Origin: Rubellimicrobium aerolatum
Lineage (GTDB): Bacteria > Pseudomonadota > Alphaproteobacteria > Rhodobacterales > Rhodobacteraceae
DNA: 64,000 nt
Direction of reading: 5' to 3'
Assembly: GCF_017872975.1 (NCBI RefSeq)
Contig: NZ_JAGGJP010000003.1
Location: 124,001 to 188,000, forward strand
Part shown: one piece after another, positions 1,960-55,597 of the stretch
Numbering within the stretch: position 1 is the first letter of the stretch
How the letters are laid out: each line of letters begins with the position of its first letter
Program-made: the position numbers and the translations under genes
Notes under the pieces: model-generated
The model's input: the letters and a program-made list of their open reading frames with translations, nothing else
What the model was told of the DNA's origin: nothing
The model's database searches: none

Positions 1960-2558
1960 GCCGGGATGCTCCCCCGCACCGACAGGAAAGACAAGAGGGG
2001 CAGGAGCGGCAGTCCGAGGATGGTGAAGTGGTCGCCCTCGATCCGCGTGAACAGCCGCACTCCCTCGGCCTCCACCTGGTAAGCCCCGACCGAATGGCGC
2101 ACGGCCTCCCAGTTCCGCCCGAGATAGCCGTCGATCCACTCCTCCGACAGTCGCCCCATGGTCATGCGCGCCTCCGCGACGTGCCGCCAGACCGGCTCCG
2201 CGCCGCGATGGATCACCGCCGCCGAATGGAGCCGGTGCGTCCGCCCCATCAGGAACGCCAGTTGCGCGCGCGCCTCCTCCACCGTCGCGGGCTTGGAGAA
2301 CACGCGTCCCTCGCAGGACAGCACCTGATCGCAGCCGAGCGCCAGCGCCTCGGGCCGCCGCGCGCCCACCCGCGCCGCCTTCATCTCCGCCAGCGCATCC
2401 GCGAGGTCGCGCGGGCTCGTCCCTTCGGCCAGCAGCGCCGCCTTCAGCGCCGCCTCGTCCACGCGCGGCACCACGACCTCGAACTCCAGACCCGCCGCGC
2501 GCAGCATCGTCGCCCGCGTGGCGGAGCCGGAAGCCAGGATGAGCGGTTCGGACGGCAT
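1956..2558 (-). CDS. maf: Maf family nucleoside triphosphate pyrophosphatase
   Basis: Maf proteins hydrolyse non-canonical or modified nucleoside triphosphates to the monophosphate and pyrophosphate. The 200-residue product begins [19 protein letters not shown], with the family's substrate-binding LASxSxxR-type loop. It continues with a DE pair (RVDEAALKA), GCDQVL containing the catalytic acidic residue, and [10 protein letters not shown]. The exact substrate (TTP/UTP class or m7GTP class) cannot be settled from the sequence alone. The ATG at 2556-2558 is the first gene start left of the candidate origin, and a DnaA-box-like 9-mer begins one base upstream of it. Confidence 0.9.
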
Positions 2559-2946
2559 TGTGGACAACCCTGCGGAGGAACGGGGGACGGAACGCCCGGC
2601 ACTCTGGACGACTCGGGGACCGGACGGAAGGCCTGTGGGGGACTCGGGGATTCGCGCCCCGAGTCGCCCCGAGTCCCCCACGGGGGATAGGGATAAGTCG
2701 GGCCTGTGGACGAATCGGAGTCTTGCCATCGCGGCTCGGCTGGCTTCCGGTAGGAACATCTGCGAAATCAATGGTCTGCTCGACTCCATGTGGCCATTCG
2801 GCCCGTCCTGCCTGTTGATTCGGCTGTGGACTCCTTTGGGGAGGACGGGCGGCCCGAGCGCTTGTCCACACTCCAACCGCCATCCACCTCCCCTTTCCCT
2901 ATCGGGAATCTTAAGAGAAGGTGGGCCGACCCAAAGGCCGCCCGGA
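2559..2946. other. candidate chromosomal replication origin (oriC), gene-free gap between maf and hemJ
   Basis: No credible gene is seen here. The gap separates two outward-facing gene sets. It contains DnaA-box-like 9-mers: TGTGGACAA at 2559-2567, TGTGGACGA at 2705-2713, TGTGGACTC at 2825-2833 and, on the other strand, TTGTCCACA at 2862-2870, the exact complement of the first. The consensus is TGTGGATAA, so the first and last differ by one base. A cluster of GACTCGGGG repeats lies at 2610-2681, and a modestly AT-richer patch with CTTAAG is near 2910. In Caulobacter and relatives the origin lies upstream of maf-aroE-coaE-dnaQ. Oppositely oriented flanking genes and parS plus parAB within 8 kb support the call. 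It is inferred, not proven; a promoter region for maf and hemJ must also be here. Confidence 0.6.
2610..2681. repeat. GACTCGGGG repeat cluster with a 15-bp inverted repeat
   Basis: The 9-mer GACTCGGGG occurs at 2610-2618 and 2641-2649, and its complement CCCCGAGTC at 2657-2665 and 2667-2675. The second and fourth copies are embedded in a perfect 15-bp inverted repeat with arms 2635-2649 and 2667-2681 and a 17-base spacer. The last two copies are tandem with a 10-base period, about one helical turn. The pattern resembles protein-binding iterons in origins, or a strong cruciform/hairpin. Its function is unknown. Confidence 0.8.
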
Positions 2947-3408
2947 ATGCTCGACGCCCTTCAACCCCTCTATCCCTGGATCAAGGCCGCCCATGTGATC
3001 GCGATGGTCGCGTGGATGGCGGGGATCTTCTACCTGCCGCGCCTTTTCGTGTATCATGTCGAGGGCTTGCGGAAGCAGGGCGTGGTTCGGGGCAGCGACA
3101 TGGACCTGCTCTTCCAGCATCAGGAAAGGCTGCTCCTCCGCGCGATCATGAACCCCGCCATGGTCGCGACATGGGCGCTCGGCGTCCTGCTGATCGGCTT
3201 GGGCGGCTGGTGGTCCTCGGGCTGGCTCTGGGTCAAGCTCGCGGCGGTGGTGGCGCTCACGGGGTTCCACATGTGGCTCGCCGCGCGGCGGCGCGACTTC
3301 GTGGAGGGCCGCAACACCCTCAAGGGCCGCAGCTACCGCATCATGAACGAGGTGCCGACGCTGCTCCTTCTCGTCATCGTCGTCATGGTGATCGTGAAGC
3401 CGTTCTGA
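2947..3408 (+). CDS. hemJ: protoporphyrinogen IX oxidase, HemJ type
   Basis: Membrane enzyme that oxidises protoporphyrinogen IX to protoporphyrin IX in haem and chlorophyll synthesis. The 153-residue protein begins [37 protein letters not shown]; the early His16 and the [15 protein letters not shown] signature are typical of this family. Four hydrophobic segments can be picked out (about residues 14-33, 74-95, 98-112 and 137-151). Length matches the family. It is the first gene right of the candidate origin, a position often held by a haem gene in alphaproteobacteria. Confidence 0.88.
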
Positions 3409-6571: not shown

Positions 6572-8443
6572 GTGTTTCACGTGAAACAGTTCGACGTCAT
6601 CGTGGTGGGCGGCGGCCATGCGGGCTGCGAGGCGGCGCACGCGTCCGCCCGCGCCGGCGCGCGCACCCTCCTCCTGACGCTCCGGCTGGCCTCCGTCGGC
6701 GTGATGTCCTGCAACCCGGCCATCGGGGGATTGGGCAAGGGCCATCTCGTGCGCGAGGTGGACGCCCTCGACGGCATCATGGGCCGGATGGCCGACCGCG
6801 CCGGCATCCAGTTCCGCCTCCTCAACCGTTCCAAGGGCCCTGCCGTCCAGGGCCCCCGCACCCAGGCCGACCGCCGCCTCTACCGCGAGGCCGTGCAGGC
6901 CGAGCTCGCCGCCTGCCCCAACCTCACGCTGCTGGAAGGCGAGGCCGCCGACCTCCTGGTCGAGAACAACCGCGTCGCCGGCCTCACCCTCGCCGACGGC
7001 GCCCGGATCCGCTCTGGAGCCGTGGTCCTGACCACCGGCACCTTCCTTAACGGCGTGATCCATGTCGGCGACCGCTCCCGCCCCGGTGGCCGCGTGGGCG
7101 AGCCGCCCTCCAAGGCCCTCGCCGACCGCCTCTACGGCCTGAACCTCCCCATGGGCCGCCTCAAGACCGGCACGCCCCCGCGCCTCGACGGCCGCACCAT
7201 CTCCTGGGACCGGCTGGAGCGGCAGGAGGCGGATGCCGACCCCGCGATGCTCAGCTTCCTGTCGGACGGCCCCACGGCCCCGCAGATCGCCTGCGGCATC
7301 ACCCACACCAATGCGCGGACACACGAGATCATCCGCGCCAACCTGTCCCGCTCGGCCATGTATGGCGGCCATATCCAGGGCGTCGGCCCGCGCTACTGCC
7401 CCTCCATCGAGGACAAGGTGGTGCGCTTCGCCGACAAGGATTCGCACCAGGTGTTCCTCGAACCCGAAGGGCTCGACGACCCGACCGTCTACCCCAACGG
7501 CATCTCCACCTCGCTTCCCGCCGAGGTGCAGGAGGATTACGTCCGCTCCATGGACGGGCTGGAGAACGCCGTCATCACCCAGCCCGGCTACGCCATCGAA
7601 TACGACTACGTGGACCCGCGCGCGCTCTCGCTCTCGCTGGAGGTCAAGGTCCTGCCCGGCCTCTGGCTCGCCGGCCAGATCAACGGCACCACCGGCTACG
7701 AGGAGGCCGCCGCCCAGGGCCTCGTCGCCGGCCTCAACGCCGCCCGCGCGACCCACGACCAGCCCCCGGCCGAGTTCAGCCGCGCCGACTCCTACATCGG
7801 CGTCCTGATCGACGACCTGACCACGCGCGGCGTGACCGAGCCCTACCGGATGTTCACCTCGCGGGCCGAGTTCCGCCTGTCTCTCCGCGTGGACAACGCC
7901 GACCAGCGCCTCACGGCCAAGGGCCGCGACTGGGGCGTCGTCGGCGACACCCGCTGGCAGGCGTTCTCCGAGAAGATGGACGCGCTCGACGCAGCGCGGG
8001 CCGACCTCCGCGCCCGCCGCTTCACCGCCCGCCGGATCGCGGGCGCGGGCCTCAACCTCAACCCCGACGGCGAGACGCGCGACGGCCTCCAGACCCTCGC
8101 CCTCACCGACGCGACCTGGGACCACCTCGCCGCGCTCGACCCCGCGCTCCCCCTGCCCGCGCCGAAGGTCCGCGAGCAGCTCAAGCGCGAGGCGCAATAC
8201 GCCACCTACCTCGACCGGCAGGAGCGGGACATCGCCCAACTCAAGCGCGAGGAATCCACGCGCCTGCCCGCCGACTTCGACTACGCGGCGGTCCCCGGCC
8301 TTTCCATCGAGCTGCGCCAGAAGCTCGAACGCGCCCGTCCCGCCTCCCTCCGCCATGCGGCCGAGATCGACGGCATGACGCCCTCGGCCCTCCTCCTCCT
8401 CGCCGCGCGGCTCAGGAAGCGCGCGGACGGCCTCGCCGCATGA
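6572..8443 (+). CDS. mnmG: tRNA uridine-5-carboxymethylaminomethyl(34) synthesis enzyme MnmG (FAD-dependent)
   Basis: FAD/NADH-dependent partner of MnmE in wobble-uridine modification. The product, 623 residues, begins [22 protein letters not shown], with the dinucleotide-binding GGGHAG loop. It carries [22 protein letters not shown], the [10 protein letters not shown] region, and the C-terminal MnmE-binding helical domain. No ATG is available; I use the GTG at 6572. A second GTG at 6581 (VKQFDV) has a better ribosome-site spacing, so the start is uncertain by three codons. The first codons coincide with a perfect parS palindrome (6573-6588), which appears to dictate the FHVKQ amino-acid string. 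Confidence 0.96.
6573..6588. other. parS centromere site (ParB binding), perfect consensus
   Basis: The 16-mer TGTTTCACGTGAAACA is a perfect palindrome and matches the parS consensus known from Caulobacter and Bacillus at every position. It sits at the mnmE/mnmG junction, within the first codons of mnmG, 3.6 kb right of the candidate origin and 2.5 kb left of parA-parB. ParB would load here and ParA would move the site during chromosome segregation. Confidence 0.92.
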
Positions 8444-9057
8444 CCGTGACGCGGGACCTCCCCGGACTGGACCTCCCCCCCGCGACGCTGGAGCGGCTGG
8501 GGGCCTTCGAGGCTTTGGCCCGTCGCTGGACGGGGAAGATCAACCTCGTCGCCCCCTCCACCGTCCCCGACCTCTGGACGCGCCATATCGCCGACTCCGC
8601 CCAACTCTGGCCGCTCGCGCCTAGCGCCGCCGCGACCTGGGCCGATCTCGGCTCGGGCGGCGGCTTCCCTGGCCTCGTCATCGCCATCCTGTCGGGCGAC
8701 ACCGGCCCCAAACTCACGCTGATCGAGAGCGACGGACGCAAATGCGCCTTTCTCCGCACCGCCGCGCGCGAGTTGGGCCTGTCCGTGACCATCCTCGATC
8801 AGCGCGTCGAGTCCGCCCCGTCCCAGGCCGCGCAGATCGTCTCCGCCCGCGCCCTCGCCCCGCTCGTCACCTTGCTTCCGCTCGTCGCCCGCCACCTCGC
8901 CCCCGGCGGCACCGCGCTCCTCCCCAAGGGCCGCGACTGGGCGGCCGAGATCGACGCCGCCCATGCCGGGGGCTGGACCTTCGACGCCGAGCCCATCCCC
9001 AGCACCACCGACCCCACCGCGCGCGTCCTGCGCCTCCAGAACATCGCCCATGGCTGA
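8440..9057 (+). CDS. rsmG: 16S rRNA (guanine527-N7)-methyltransferase
   Basis: Adds a methyl group to N7 of G527 in 16S rRNA using S-adenosylmethionine. The 205-residue protein shows KINLVAPST with the family's WNxxxNL/T-type region, then the SAM-binding loop [16 protein letters not shown] near residue 70 and a following [12 protein letters not shown] strand with an acidic end. The ATG at 8440 overlaps the mnmG stop by four bases (ATGA). Its own 3' end overlaps parA by eight bases. Loss of this enzyme gives low-level streptomycin resistance in other bacteria (family knowledge). Confidence 0.95.
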
Positions 9058-9841
9058 CCCGCGCAAGCTCCCCAAGATCATCGCCGTCGCCAACCAGAAG
9101 GGCGGCGTCGGCAAGACCACGACCGCCATCAACCTTGGCGCGGCTCTGGCGCGGCGCGACCGCCGCGTGCTCCTCGTGGACCTCGACCCGCAGGGCAACG
9201 CCTCCACCGGCCTGGGCCTCGCGCCCGAGGCGCGCAAGGTCTCCAGCTTCGACCTCCTCCTGGGCGAGGCCACGCCCGAGGAGGCGGCGCACCCGACCGC
9301 CAACCCCAACCTCCTCCTGGTGCCCGCCACCTCAGACCTCAGCGGCGCCGATTTGGAGCTGGGCAACCGCCAGGGCCGCACTGGCCTCCTGCGCGGCGCG
9401 CTGCGCCAGCCGCTCATGGACGCGCTGCGGCTCGATTACATCCTGATCGACTGCCCGCCCTCGCTGAACGTGCTGACGATCAACGCCCTCGTCGCCGCGC
9501 AATCCGTCCTCGTGCCGCTGCAAAGCGAGTTCTTCGCCCTCGAAGGCCTGTCCCAGCTCATGCTGACGATCCGCGAGGTTCGCCAGACCGCCAACCCCTC
9601 GCTCCGCATCGAGGGCGTGGCGCTGACCATGGTGGACCGCCGCACCAGCCTCGCCCAGATGGTCGAGGCCGACGCGCGCGAGAACCTGGGTGACCTCGTG
9701 TTCCAGACCGTCATCCCCCGCAACGTCCGCCTCTCCGAGGCCCCGTCGCACGCCCAGTCCGTCCTCGATTACGACCCCTCCTCGGCCGGCGCGAACGCCT
9801 ACCGCGCGCTCGCGGCCGAACTCCTCGCCCGCGAAAGCTGA
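9050..9841 (+). CDS. parA: chromosome partitioning ATPase ParA
   Basis: Dimerising ATPase that binds the nucleoid and pulls ParB-parS complexes apart. The 263-residue protein carries the deviant Walker A box NQKGGVGKTT with the signature lysine at K17, then LLVDLDPQGNASTGLG and YILIDCPPSLNVLTINAL (Walker B). The length and lack of an N-terminal DNA-binding extension fit chromosomal (type Ib-like/Soj) ParA. The start ATG lies inside the end of rsmG, an eight-base overlap. parB follows after eight bases. Confidence 0.96.
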   Translation: MADPRKLPKIIAVANQKGGVGKTTTAINLGAALARRDRRVLLVDLDPQGNASTGLGLAPEARKVSSFDLLLGEATPEEAAHPTANPNLLLVPATSDLSGADLELGNRQGRTGLLRGALRQPLMDALRLDYILIDCPPSLNVLTINALVAAQSVLVPLQSEFFALEGLSQLMLTIREVRQTANPSLRIEGVALTMVDRRTSLAQMVEADARENLGDLVFQTVIPRNVRLSEAPSHAQSVLDYDPSSAGANAYRALAAELLARES

Positions 9842-9849
9842 GACCGCCC

Positions 9850-10743
9850 ATGGCCGAGAAACCCCTCCTGAAACGCGGCCTCGGACGGGGTCTCTCGGCG
9901 CTGATGGCCGACCTCGGCACCGACCTCGCCAAGGAGGCCGCGCCCGCTGCGCCTCCACCGCGCAGCCCCGAGCGGCTCATGCCCGTCGAATCGCTGCGCC
10001 CCAACCCCGACCAGCCCCGCCGCACCTTCGAGCCCGCCGCGCTGGAGGAGCTGGCCGCCTCGCTCCGAACCAAGGGCGTGATCCAGCCGCTGATCGTCCG
10101 TCCCGACCCGCACGAGCCCTCGGCTTGGCAGATCGTCGCCGGCGAGCGGCGCTGGCGCGCGGCCCAGAAGGCGGGCCTGTCGGAGGTTCCGGTGATCGTC
10201 CGCAACTACGACGATGCCGAGCTGCTGGAAATCGCGATCATCGAGAACATCCAGCGCGACGACCTCAACCCCATCGACGAGGGCGCGGCCTACCGCAGCC
10301 TGATCGACCGCTTCGGCCACAGCCAGGAGCAGGTCGCCACCGCCCTCGGCAAGAGCCGCAGCCACGTCGCCAACCAGATGCGCCTCCTGGGCCTTCCCGC
10401 CGAGGTGCAGCGCATGGTCGCCGATCGCACCATCTCCGCCGGCCACGCCCGCCCGCTCATCGGCCATCCCCGCGCCCTCGACCTCGCCCGCCGCATCGCC
10501 GAGCGTGGCCTCTCGGCCCGCGACGCCGAGCGCCTCGCCAAGACCGCCCAAGCCGAGAAGCAGAAGCGCGAAAGGACCGAAAAGGACGCCGACACCCGCG
10601 CCATCGAGGGCGAGCTGTCGGCGGCGCTCAAGATGGGCGTCCGCATCGACCACGGTGCCGCCGGCGAGGGCGGGCGCGTGACGATCACCTACAGGAACCT
10701 CGACCAGCTCGACGACCTGCTGCGGCGGCTCTCGGGCGGCTGA
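9850..10743 (+). CDS. parB: chromosome partitioning protein ParB (CTPase, parS-binding)
   Basis: Binds parS and spreads as a CTP-dependent clamp. The 297-residue protein starts with a short basic tail (KRGLGRGLSALMADL) that stimulates ParA in relatives. The CTP-binding domain has GERRWRA at residues 98-104 and ENIQRDDLNPIDEG. The helix-turn-helix region is HSQEQVATALGKSRSHVANQMRLLGLP (about 154-180). A C-terminal dimerisation segment ends in LDQLDDLLRRLSGG. Two parS palindromes in this window (6573-6588 and 55578-55597) are its likely targets. Confidence 0.96.
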   Translation: MAEKPLLKRGLGRGLSALMADLGTDLAKEAAPAAPPPRSPERLMPVESLRPNPDQPRRTFEPAALEELAASLRTKGVIQPLIVRPDPHEPSAWQIVAGERRWRAAQKAGLSEVPVIVRNYDDAELLEIAIIENIQRDDLNPIDEGAAYRSLIDRFGHSQEQVATALGKSRSHVANQMRLLGLPAEVQRMVADRTISAGHARPLIGHPRALDLARRIAERGLSARDAERLAKTAQAEKQKRERTEKDADTRAIEGELSAALKMGVRIDHGAAGEGGRVTITYRNLDQLDDLLRRLSGG

Positions 10744-55577: not shown

Positions 55578-55597
55578 GACGTTTCACGTGAAACGTC
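55578..55597. other. second parS-type site
   Basis: The 20-mer GACGTTTCACGTGAAACGTC is a perfect palindrome whose central 14 bases (GTTTCACGTGAAAC) equal the parS core. Compared with the consensus 16-mer only the two outermost bases change (C..G for T..A), symmetrically. It lies 49 kb from the first site, still in the origin-proximal region. Confidence 0.82.

Follow-up and report, generated by a model that had tools for sequence, protein, structure and literature searches.

A candidate chromosome origin between maf and hemJ in Rubellimicrobium and its crowding with CcrM sites

Where does the chromosome of Rubellimicrobium begin its replication, and could methylation by CcrM bear on that step? 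Both questions are raised by a short gene-free gap between maf and hemJ in the draft genome of Rubellimicrobium aerolatum (3.76 Mb in 59 contigs; genome code G000), which a preliminary description had read as oriC. The window, the whole 64,000-nucleotide stretch analysed here, is C3:124001-188000 of that draft. A literature search returned nothing on a Rubellimicrobium origin.

The gap, its neighbours and its conservation

The preliminary description had noted a 388-bp gap from which genes point outward and four DnaA-box-like 9-mers within it, the outer two facing each other. All of this is confirmed: the bordering genes are divergent, the four 9-mers are in place, and those at 2559 (plus) and 2862 (minus) are exact 9-bp inverted copies of one another, separated by 294 bp. 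The features of the gap and its borders, in window positions, are as follows.

2559-2946, no strand: candidate oriC (maf/hemJ gap), 388 bp, gene-free, with divergent borders
1960-2558, minus strand: maf, Maf-like nucleotide pyrophosphatase, left border, start at 2558 (PF02545, 144.6 bits)
2947-3405, plus strand: hemJ, protoporphyrinogen oxidase HemJ, right border, start at 2947 (PF03653, 183.2 bits; TIGR00701, 143 bits, above the cut-off of 138)
2559-2567, plus strand: DnaA-box-like TGTGGACAA, with a TGTGGA core
2705-2713, plus strand: DnaA-box-like TGTGGACGA, overlapping the GANTC at 2712 (TGTGGACGAATC)
2825-2833, plus strand: DnaA-box-like TGTGGACTC, with the GANTC at 2829 inside it
2862-2870, minus strand: DnaA-box-like TGTGGACAA (TTGTCCACA), hemJ-proximal
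2720-2810, no strand: locally AT-richer stretch, a candidate unwinding region (GC 0.55-0.60 in 60-bp bins starting at 2720-2780, against 0.71 for the window)

Box-like sequences are concentrated here. Five copies of TGTGGACNA occur in the 64-kb window, three of them in the gap, whereas shuffles average 0.58 and none of 100 reached five, and four of the window's 13 TGTGGA/TCCACA cores fall inside the 388 bp. GC content is 0.65 over the gap, dipping to 0.55, against 0.71 for the window, in which a search with Rfam at gathering thresholds gave no match. TGTGGAYAA has 16 copies in the 3.76-Mb draft, and pairs of it about 300 bp or less apart occur at three places, the maf/hemJ gap being one. The other two, upstream of nrdJ-like and uvrC-like genes (names taken from open reading frames), were rejected as origins because each has two boxes in a promoter-like position. 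These are the TGTGGATAA pairs at G000:C1:228356-228451 and G000:C9:6964-7145, upstream of a B12-dependent ribonucleotide reductase-like gene and the uvrC-like gene, respectively, and they are possible DnaA-regulated promoters. The preliminary description had also taken the GAC that replaces GAT in the boxes for a lineage-specific variant. That idea now looks weak, because the first box of the congener G002 reads TGTGGATAA and because GC-rich bacteria usually have TTGTCCACA as their DnaA box.

The arrangement is widespread in the family. We assembled two sets of loci. The first has 30, from the window's genome and 29 relatives, which ranked best among 53 genomes with a match; the second consists of the 80 best named loci out of 452. 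Divergent maf, gap and hemJ were present in 25 of the 30, the other five having no maf in reach, and in 73 of the 80, the other seven having no hemJ match. Four of the 98 gaps were longer (about 1.2 and 2.2 kb) and were excluded; dropping exact duplicates from the remaining 94, all of at most 500 bp, and retaining near-duplicates left 89 distinct gaps of 336-477 bp (median 401 bp). These hold 193 copies of TGTGGA/TCCACA, where three control hexamers have 7, 11 and 9; at least one core is present in 79 of the gaps, and the cores favour certain distances from hemJ (counted before duplicate removal). GC content is lower in the gap than in its flanks at 22 of 25 loci of the first set and 72 of 73 named loci. 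A CATCATC element precedes hemJ by 46-89 bp (about 63 bp) in 56 of the 89 gaps, against 1 and 2 for controls, and adjoins an AT-rich peak; averaged over the other family gaps, AT content has maxima about 30-60 and 165-195 bp ahead of the gene. The core count, gap size, GC dip and CATCATC element across the family fit an origin, and the comparison with relatives that the preliminary description had suggested thus finds both gap and boxes conserved. Within Rubellimicrobium the alignment keeps the places of the boxes, with TGTGGAYAA at the equivalent of the 2559 box in five of seven gaps.

In the window gap the CATCATC element is degenerate; it has a period of three and resembles a DnaA-trio with different letters. 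Identifying CATCATC with the DnaA-trio was dropped, as its letters do not match the trio consensus. The full CtrA site TTAA-N7-TTAA is absent from the window gap, which has one TTAA, so that Caulobacter-type CtrA control of the gap was rejected; in the family the site occurs in 4 of 89 gaps, and a 5-bp spacer gives equally many.

The preliminary description had further pointed to maf-aroE-coaE-dnaQ and to parAB and parS close by. Profile searches identify maf, rho, mnmE, mnmG, parA and parB near the gap, and aroE, coaE and dnaQ beside maf are named from their open reading frames; together with the parS-like sites and PMC4793288, these results uphold the claim.

6575-6586, plus strand: parS-like core GTTTCACGTGAAAC, near the 5' end of mnmG
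9047-9838, plus strand: parA (PF13614/PF01656)
9850-10740, plus strand: parB (PF02195, PF17762, PF23552)
55582-55593, plus strand: second parS-like core in the window

Four of the five parS-like GTTTCACGTGAAAC sites in the genome are on contig C3, where they flank the gap on both sides (81.6, 103.2, 130.6 and 179.6 kb), and dnaA lies 95 kb to the left of the gap. In the Ketogulonicigenium vulgare genome paper the predicted origin lies next to maf, a location described there as conserved in Rhodobacteraceae according to DoriC; this predicted oriC (DoriC/Ori-Finder) has the same position beside maf as the window gap (PMC4793288). That account of the origin was not found to mention GANTC or dnaA. 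The location itself is thus ordinary, being already known as a family prediction.

Strand bias around the gap

A skew minimum at the gap, as the preliminary description had expected, does not appear on the window's contig. GC skew there is negative to the left and right of the gap, with no sign change at it; the change in strand bias lies about 42 kb further right, at window 43.5-48.4 kb (C3 167.5-172.4 kb), where the polarity of GGGNAGGG switches and GC skew rises. To the left of the gap GGGNAGGG occurs 12 times forward and 34 times reverse; the counts are 2 and 24 over the following 41 kb, then 39 and 16 past C3 168 kb, where the skew rises without staying positive. Strand bias changes between +36 and +47 kb in the congeners G007 and G002; G001 is indistinct.

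In the single-contig relative G010 the skew changes sign at the gap, being -0.039 over 10 kb on the hemJ side and +0.038 over 10 kb on the maf side. There, two arms meeting at the gap account for 25 of 28 sampled stretches (14/14 negative on one, 11/14 positive on the other), the opposite switch falls between 1.46 and 1.62 Mb, and 5-kb values near the gap are noisier. G020 is noisy and agrees only roughly: over the first 15 kb on the maf side its skew is +0.003, and at +138 kb it is back at -0.05. The polarity of GGGNAGGG is displaced from the GC-skew switch in G010 as well and is therefore a poor marker of the origin.

Gene order around the window gap is that of G010 on both sides, sampled from about -60 to +57 kb, apart from one gene at +30 kb that was best matched elsewhere and whose expected G010 place (3,440,001-3,450,000) lay outside the sampled stretches. 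This comparison, where sampled, found no rearrangement that would account for the displaced strand bias, and an inversion is ruled out there by the matching order on both sides.

One could instead suppose that the origin of Rubellimicrobium has shifted about 42 kb to the right, to what reads as rimP-nusA-infB, and that the gap is its relic; the GGGNAGGG switch and the skew rise found there in three species speak for this. However, the stretch at 43.5-48.4 kb contains no TGTGGACNA, no TGTGGAYAA or box cluster and no large gene-free gap, while the G010-like gene order, the likewise displaced GGGNAGGG polarity of G010 and the box places kept within the genus also count against a shift, which we consider very improbable. 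We favour the maf/hemJ gap, which is very likely the DnaA-dependent chromosome origin of this Rubellimicrobium species: family conservation, the skew change in G010, parAB/parS and the published prediction (PMC4793288) all support the oriC reading of the preliminary description. We go no further than this mainly because of the displaced strand bias in Rubellimicrobium. Position, boxes and conservation of the gap are observed; that it fires as an origin, and in what manner, we infer.

CcrM sites within the gap and ahead of dnaA

The gap also contains 11 GANTC sites, the CcrM motif, and a hairpin; neither these sites nor the hairpin arms (2632-2649/2667-2684) were mentioned in the preliminary description.

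2610-2910, no strand: cluster of 11 GANTC (CcrM) sites, at 2610, 2641, 2649, 2661, 2671, 2712, 2718, 2782, 2817, 2829 and 2906
2632-2684, no strand: inverted repeat (hairpin), 18-nt arms at 2632-2649/2667-2684, 94% complementary, 17 nt between
2603-2614, plus strand: composite box/GANTC repeat TCTGGACGACTC, box-like TGTGG merged with GANTC
2634-2645, plus strand: composite repeat TGTGGGGGACTC, in the left hairpin arm
2671-2682, minus strand: composite repeat CGTGGGGGACTC, in the right hairpin arm, its GANTC column filled in seven of seven Rubellimicrobium gaps
L251:2356-2983 (C3 31435-32062): GANTC cluster upstream of dnaA, 13 sites in 300 bp

The 11 sites lie within 301 bp; for the gap the mean density of the window predicts 0.54, and the best 400-bp stretch of the window outside the cluster has four. 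We also sampled 1,049,002 bp of the draft (27.9%), non-randomly, as nearly all of C3 and spaced stretches of ten other contigs. In this sample the rpsT-dnaA intergenic region ranks first with 13 sites per 300 bp, the maf/hemJ gap second with 11, and the third stretch has 7.

The crowding extends to the genus. Seven Rubellimicrobium gaps (an eighth genome, G004, had only weak hemJ matches and was left out) together contain 49 GANTC against 14.6 ± 3.6 in 200 shuffles, the largest of which had 25. Dinucleotide shuffles of the single gaps, 1000 each, reached the observed number 0 (window), 4, 0, 55, 2, 2 and 89 times, so that two are non-significant singly (G005, 55/1000; G002, 89/1000). None of the 15 other palindromes of the form XYNyx (16 in all) is comparably raised in these gaps. 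The 84 other family gaps have no excess of GANTC (123 against 147.7 ± 12.2 in shuffles), although some other palindromes, such as ATNAT, are raised in them; an origin at maf/hemJ therefore does not need GANTC. At least five GANTC occur in 6 of 82 distinct gaps from outside Rubellimicrobium. GANTC-rich gaps elsewhere (L141, L105, L023, L104) include those of Sinirhodobacter with 8, Falsirhodobacter with 6 and two further lineages with 7 and 5, and were perhaps gained independently.

In the genus alignment GANTC starts fall in 22 columns, of which one is filled in all seven species, one in six and one in five, so that density has been kept while many places turn over. Columns in the hairpin arms (2632-2684) are filled in six and seven of the seven species. 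Several sites are merged with a box-like TGTGG into 12-mers (TCTGGACGACTC, TGTGGGGGACTC, TGTGGACGAATC, CGTGGGGGACTC and TCGGGGCGACTC; also TGTGGACTC), and such composites occur in six of the seven species, by a loose pattern that had no control. Over the whole window TGTGGACGANTC with up to three mismatches is in no excess (149 matches against 163 expected) and only its local crowding may be notable.

Upstream of dnaA the window's genome has 14 GANTC sites. The count is 10-14 in six Rubellimicrobium genomes, the window's included, and 4 in G005, which has no cluster (123 of 500 shuffles reach that number); G010, where a contig end cuts the region, and G001, whose dnaA is in two pieces and outside the 30 loci, were not counted. 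The two overlapping dnaA matches in G001 (G001:C5:136219-137617), a possible frameshift, lie only about 12 kb from hemJ. Six Rubellimicrobium regions together have 71 sites against 20.5 ± 4.0 in shuffles, while TGNCA (26 against 10.2), GTNAC (18 against 8.0) and AANTT (11 against 4.6) are raised less in the six species. In 22 other genera the region has 2-6 sites against 0.1-1.6 expected, a mild family-wide rise, so that the dnaA part in Rubellimicrobium is an increase and not an invention. As a candidate oriC the dnaA-upstream region was rejected: it has the highest GANTC density sampled, yet no TGTGGA/TCCACA core in 631 bp of the window's genome.

Could the sites be functionless passengers of a duplicated TGTGGACGACTC-like repeat or of the hairpin element? 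Several of them do sit in repeats and hairpin arms. Their spread over 22 columns in seven species, the lack of a comparable rise in other palindromes and the equal enrichment upstream of dnaA, where the window's genome has no TGTGGA/TCCACA cores, make this explanation quite unlikely. We think it probable that the gap is oriC and that its GANTC cluster is functional, whatever its exact action.

The proteins that such an action might involve are partly in evidence. A CcrM-like methylase gene (L073:706-1812), 138 kb from the gap, matches PF01555 and RAMA over the cut-off; its best NCBIfam match is CcrM (NF050803), at 630 bits under a cut-off of 830. GcrA is present in the window's genome. SeqA (PF03925) has no match in G000 (95.6% complete) and among 14 controls was found in E. 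coli only.

Methylation and initiation in the light of known systems

Direct control of chromosome initiation by CcrM is an unsettled question, on which reports from Caulobacter, Agrobacterium and Rhodobacterales conflict. Several GANTC are reported for the origins of C. crescentus and its near relatives (PMC3973325, citing Shaheen 2009). Overexpression of CcrM reportedly raises chromosome number in C. crescentus (PMC3973325, PMC6090056), for which PMC6090056 also states that CcrM is not required for initiation. Agrobacterium depleted of CcrM or overexpressing it is described in PMC11514494 as having no clear change at the DnaA-dependent ori1, only at ori2. A comparative paper has CcrM activating the Caulobacter dnaA promoter (PMC2877005); in PMC3885167 mutating a putative methylation site of that promoter is given as having no significant effect. 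PMC8116508, also comparative, suggests that replication-linked methylation may have no major gene-regulatory part in Rhodobacterales.

What appears to be new is that, in one genus, CcrM sites crowd both oriC and the region upstream of dnaA, some of them lying within DnaA-box-like repeats. We found no report of joint crowding in Rhodobacteraceae, in a search that mostly left out subscription journals; PMC2877005, which counted GANTC over 500 bp before the cell-cycle genes of alphaproteobacteria, may have touched on the dnaA part already.

Given the anatomy of the gap, and reports that Caulobacter CcrM works at the close of S phase, so that origin-proximal GANTC stay hemimethylated long after the fork (PMC11514494, PMC8116508), a sequence of events can be proposed. 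DnaA would bind the four TGTGGA-core boxes and their degenerate relatives and open the AT-richer part; forks would leave the gap outward, and parAB/parS would segregate the sister origins. Soon after initiation the passing fork would leave both the gap and the dnaA-upstream region hemimethylated, a state that would last until the late-cycle action of CcrM. Hemimethylation could lower both DnaA binding at the composite repeats and transcription of dnaA, restraining a second initiation, and the restraint would end once CcrM restores full methylation. A reader of the hemimethylated state, itself speculative, might be GcrA or another protein. That methylation by CcrM couples initiation to the cell cycle through the gap and dnaA-upstream sites is a tentative proposal, possible on present evidence. 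The fuller version is unlikely, namely that Rubellimicrobium evolved a methylation-gated origin, with CcrM sites inside DnaA-box-like 12-mers (TGTGGACGANTC) and crowded upstream of dnaA, hemimethylation shutting origin and dnaA until CcrM appears, as an independent alphaproteobacterial counterpart of Dam/SeqA without SeqA.

Alternatively, the gap may be oriC with a GANTC cluster that serves transcription, through hemJ and maf promoters responsive to CcrM/GcrA like many others in alphaproteobacteria, and has no part in initiation. The presence of GcrA is in keeping with this, as are the 2-6 dnaA-upstream sites of 22 other genera, most of which lack an origin cluster, the intergenic enrichment of GANTC reported for the great majority of alphaproteobacterial chromosomes (PMC8116508), and the Agrobacterium result, in which CcrM influenced repABC expression while ori1 showed no visible response (PMC11514494). 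Yet 11 sites in about 300 bp are well over the third-ranked cluster, several coincide with DnaA-box-like repeats, and we know of no evident need of maf or hemJ for such control; on balance we hold a purely transcriptional role to be somewhat unlikely. For a role in initiation, Rubellimicrobium, with its sites piled up at oriC and dnaA, offers a natural system in which to study direct CcrM control, and its sister genera without the clusters offer controls.

Caulobacter Cori and ori1 of Agrobacterium and Sinorhizobium share the neighbourhood of maf, rho, mnmE-mnmG and parAB with the window gap. Where those origins are bordered by hemE, the window gap is bordered by hemJ. CtrA sites of the form TTAA-N7-TTAA are a feature of Cori, unlike the window gap, which has none; the GANTC of the gap are very dense and overlap box-like repeats. 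GANTC-rich origins and repE promoters are described for the repABC replicons of alphaproteobacteria (PMC6090056), which resemble the gap in this respect, and ori2 is CcrM-responsive (PMC11514494). RepABC replicons, however, have the RepC origin of secondary replicons, whereas the gap is a candidate DnaA chromosome origin.

In E. coli, both oriC and the dnaA promoter are crowded with GATC, the site of the orphan adenine methylase Dam, and are subject to SeqA sequestration. The likeness lies in an origin and an initiator promoter that are both crowded with the sites of one orphan adenine methylase; the differences are that the pair is GANTC and CcrM here, that the draft has no SeqA match and that any reader is hypothetical. 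In the iterons of RctB on V. cholerae chromosome 2 and of plasmid P1 the methylation site lies inside the initiator repeat itself, and the composite repeats of the gap follow the same principle, with a repeat that is DnaA-box-like and a site that is GANTC.
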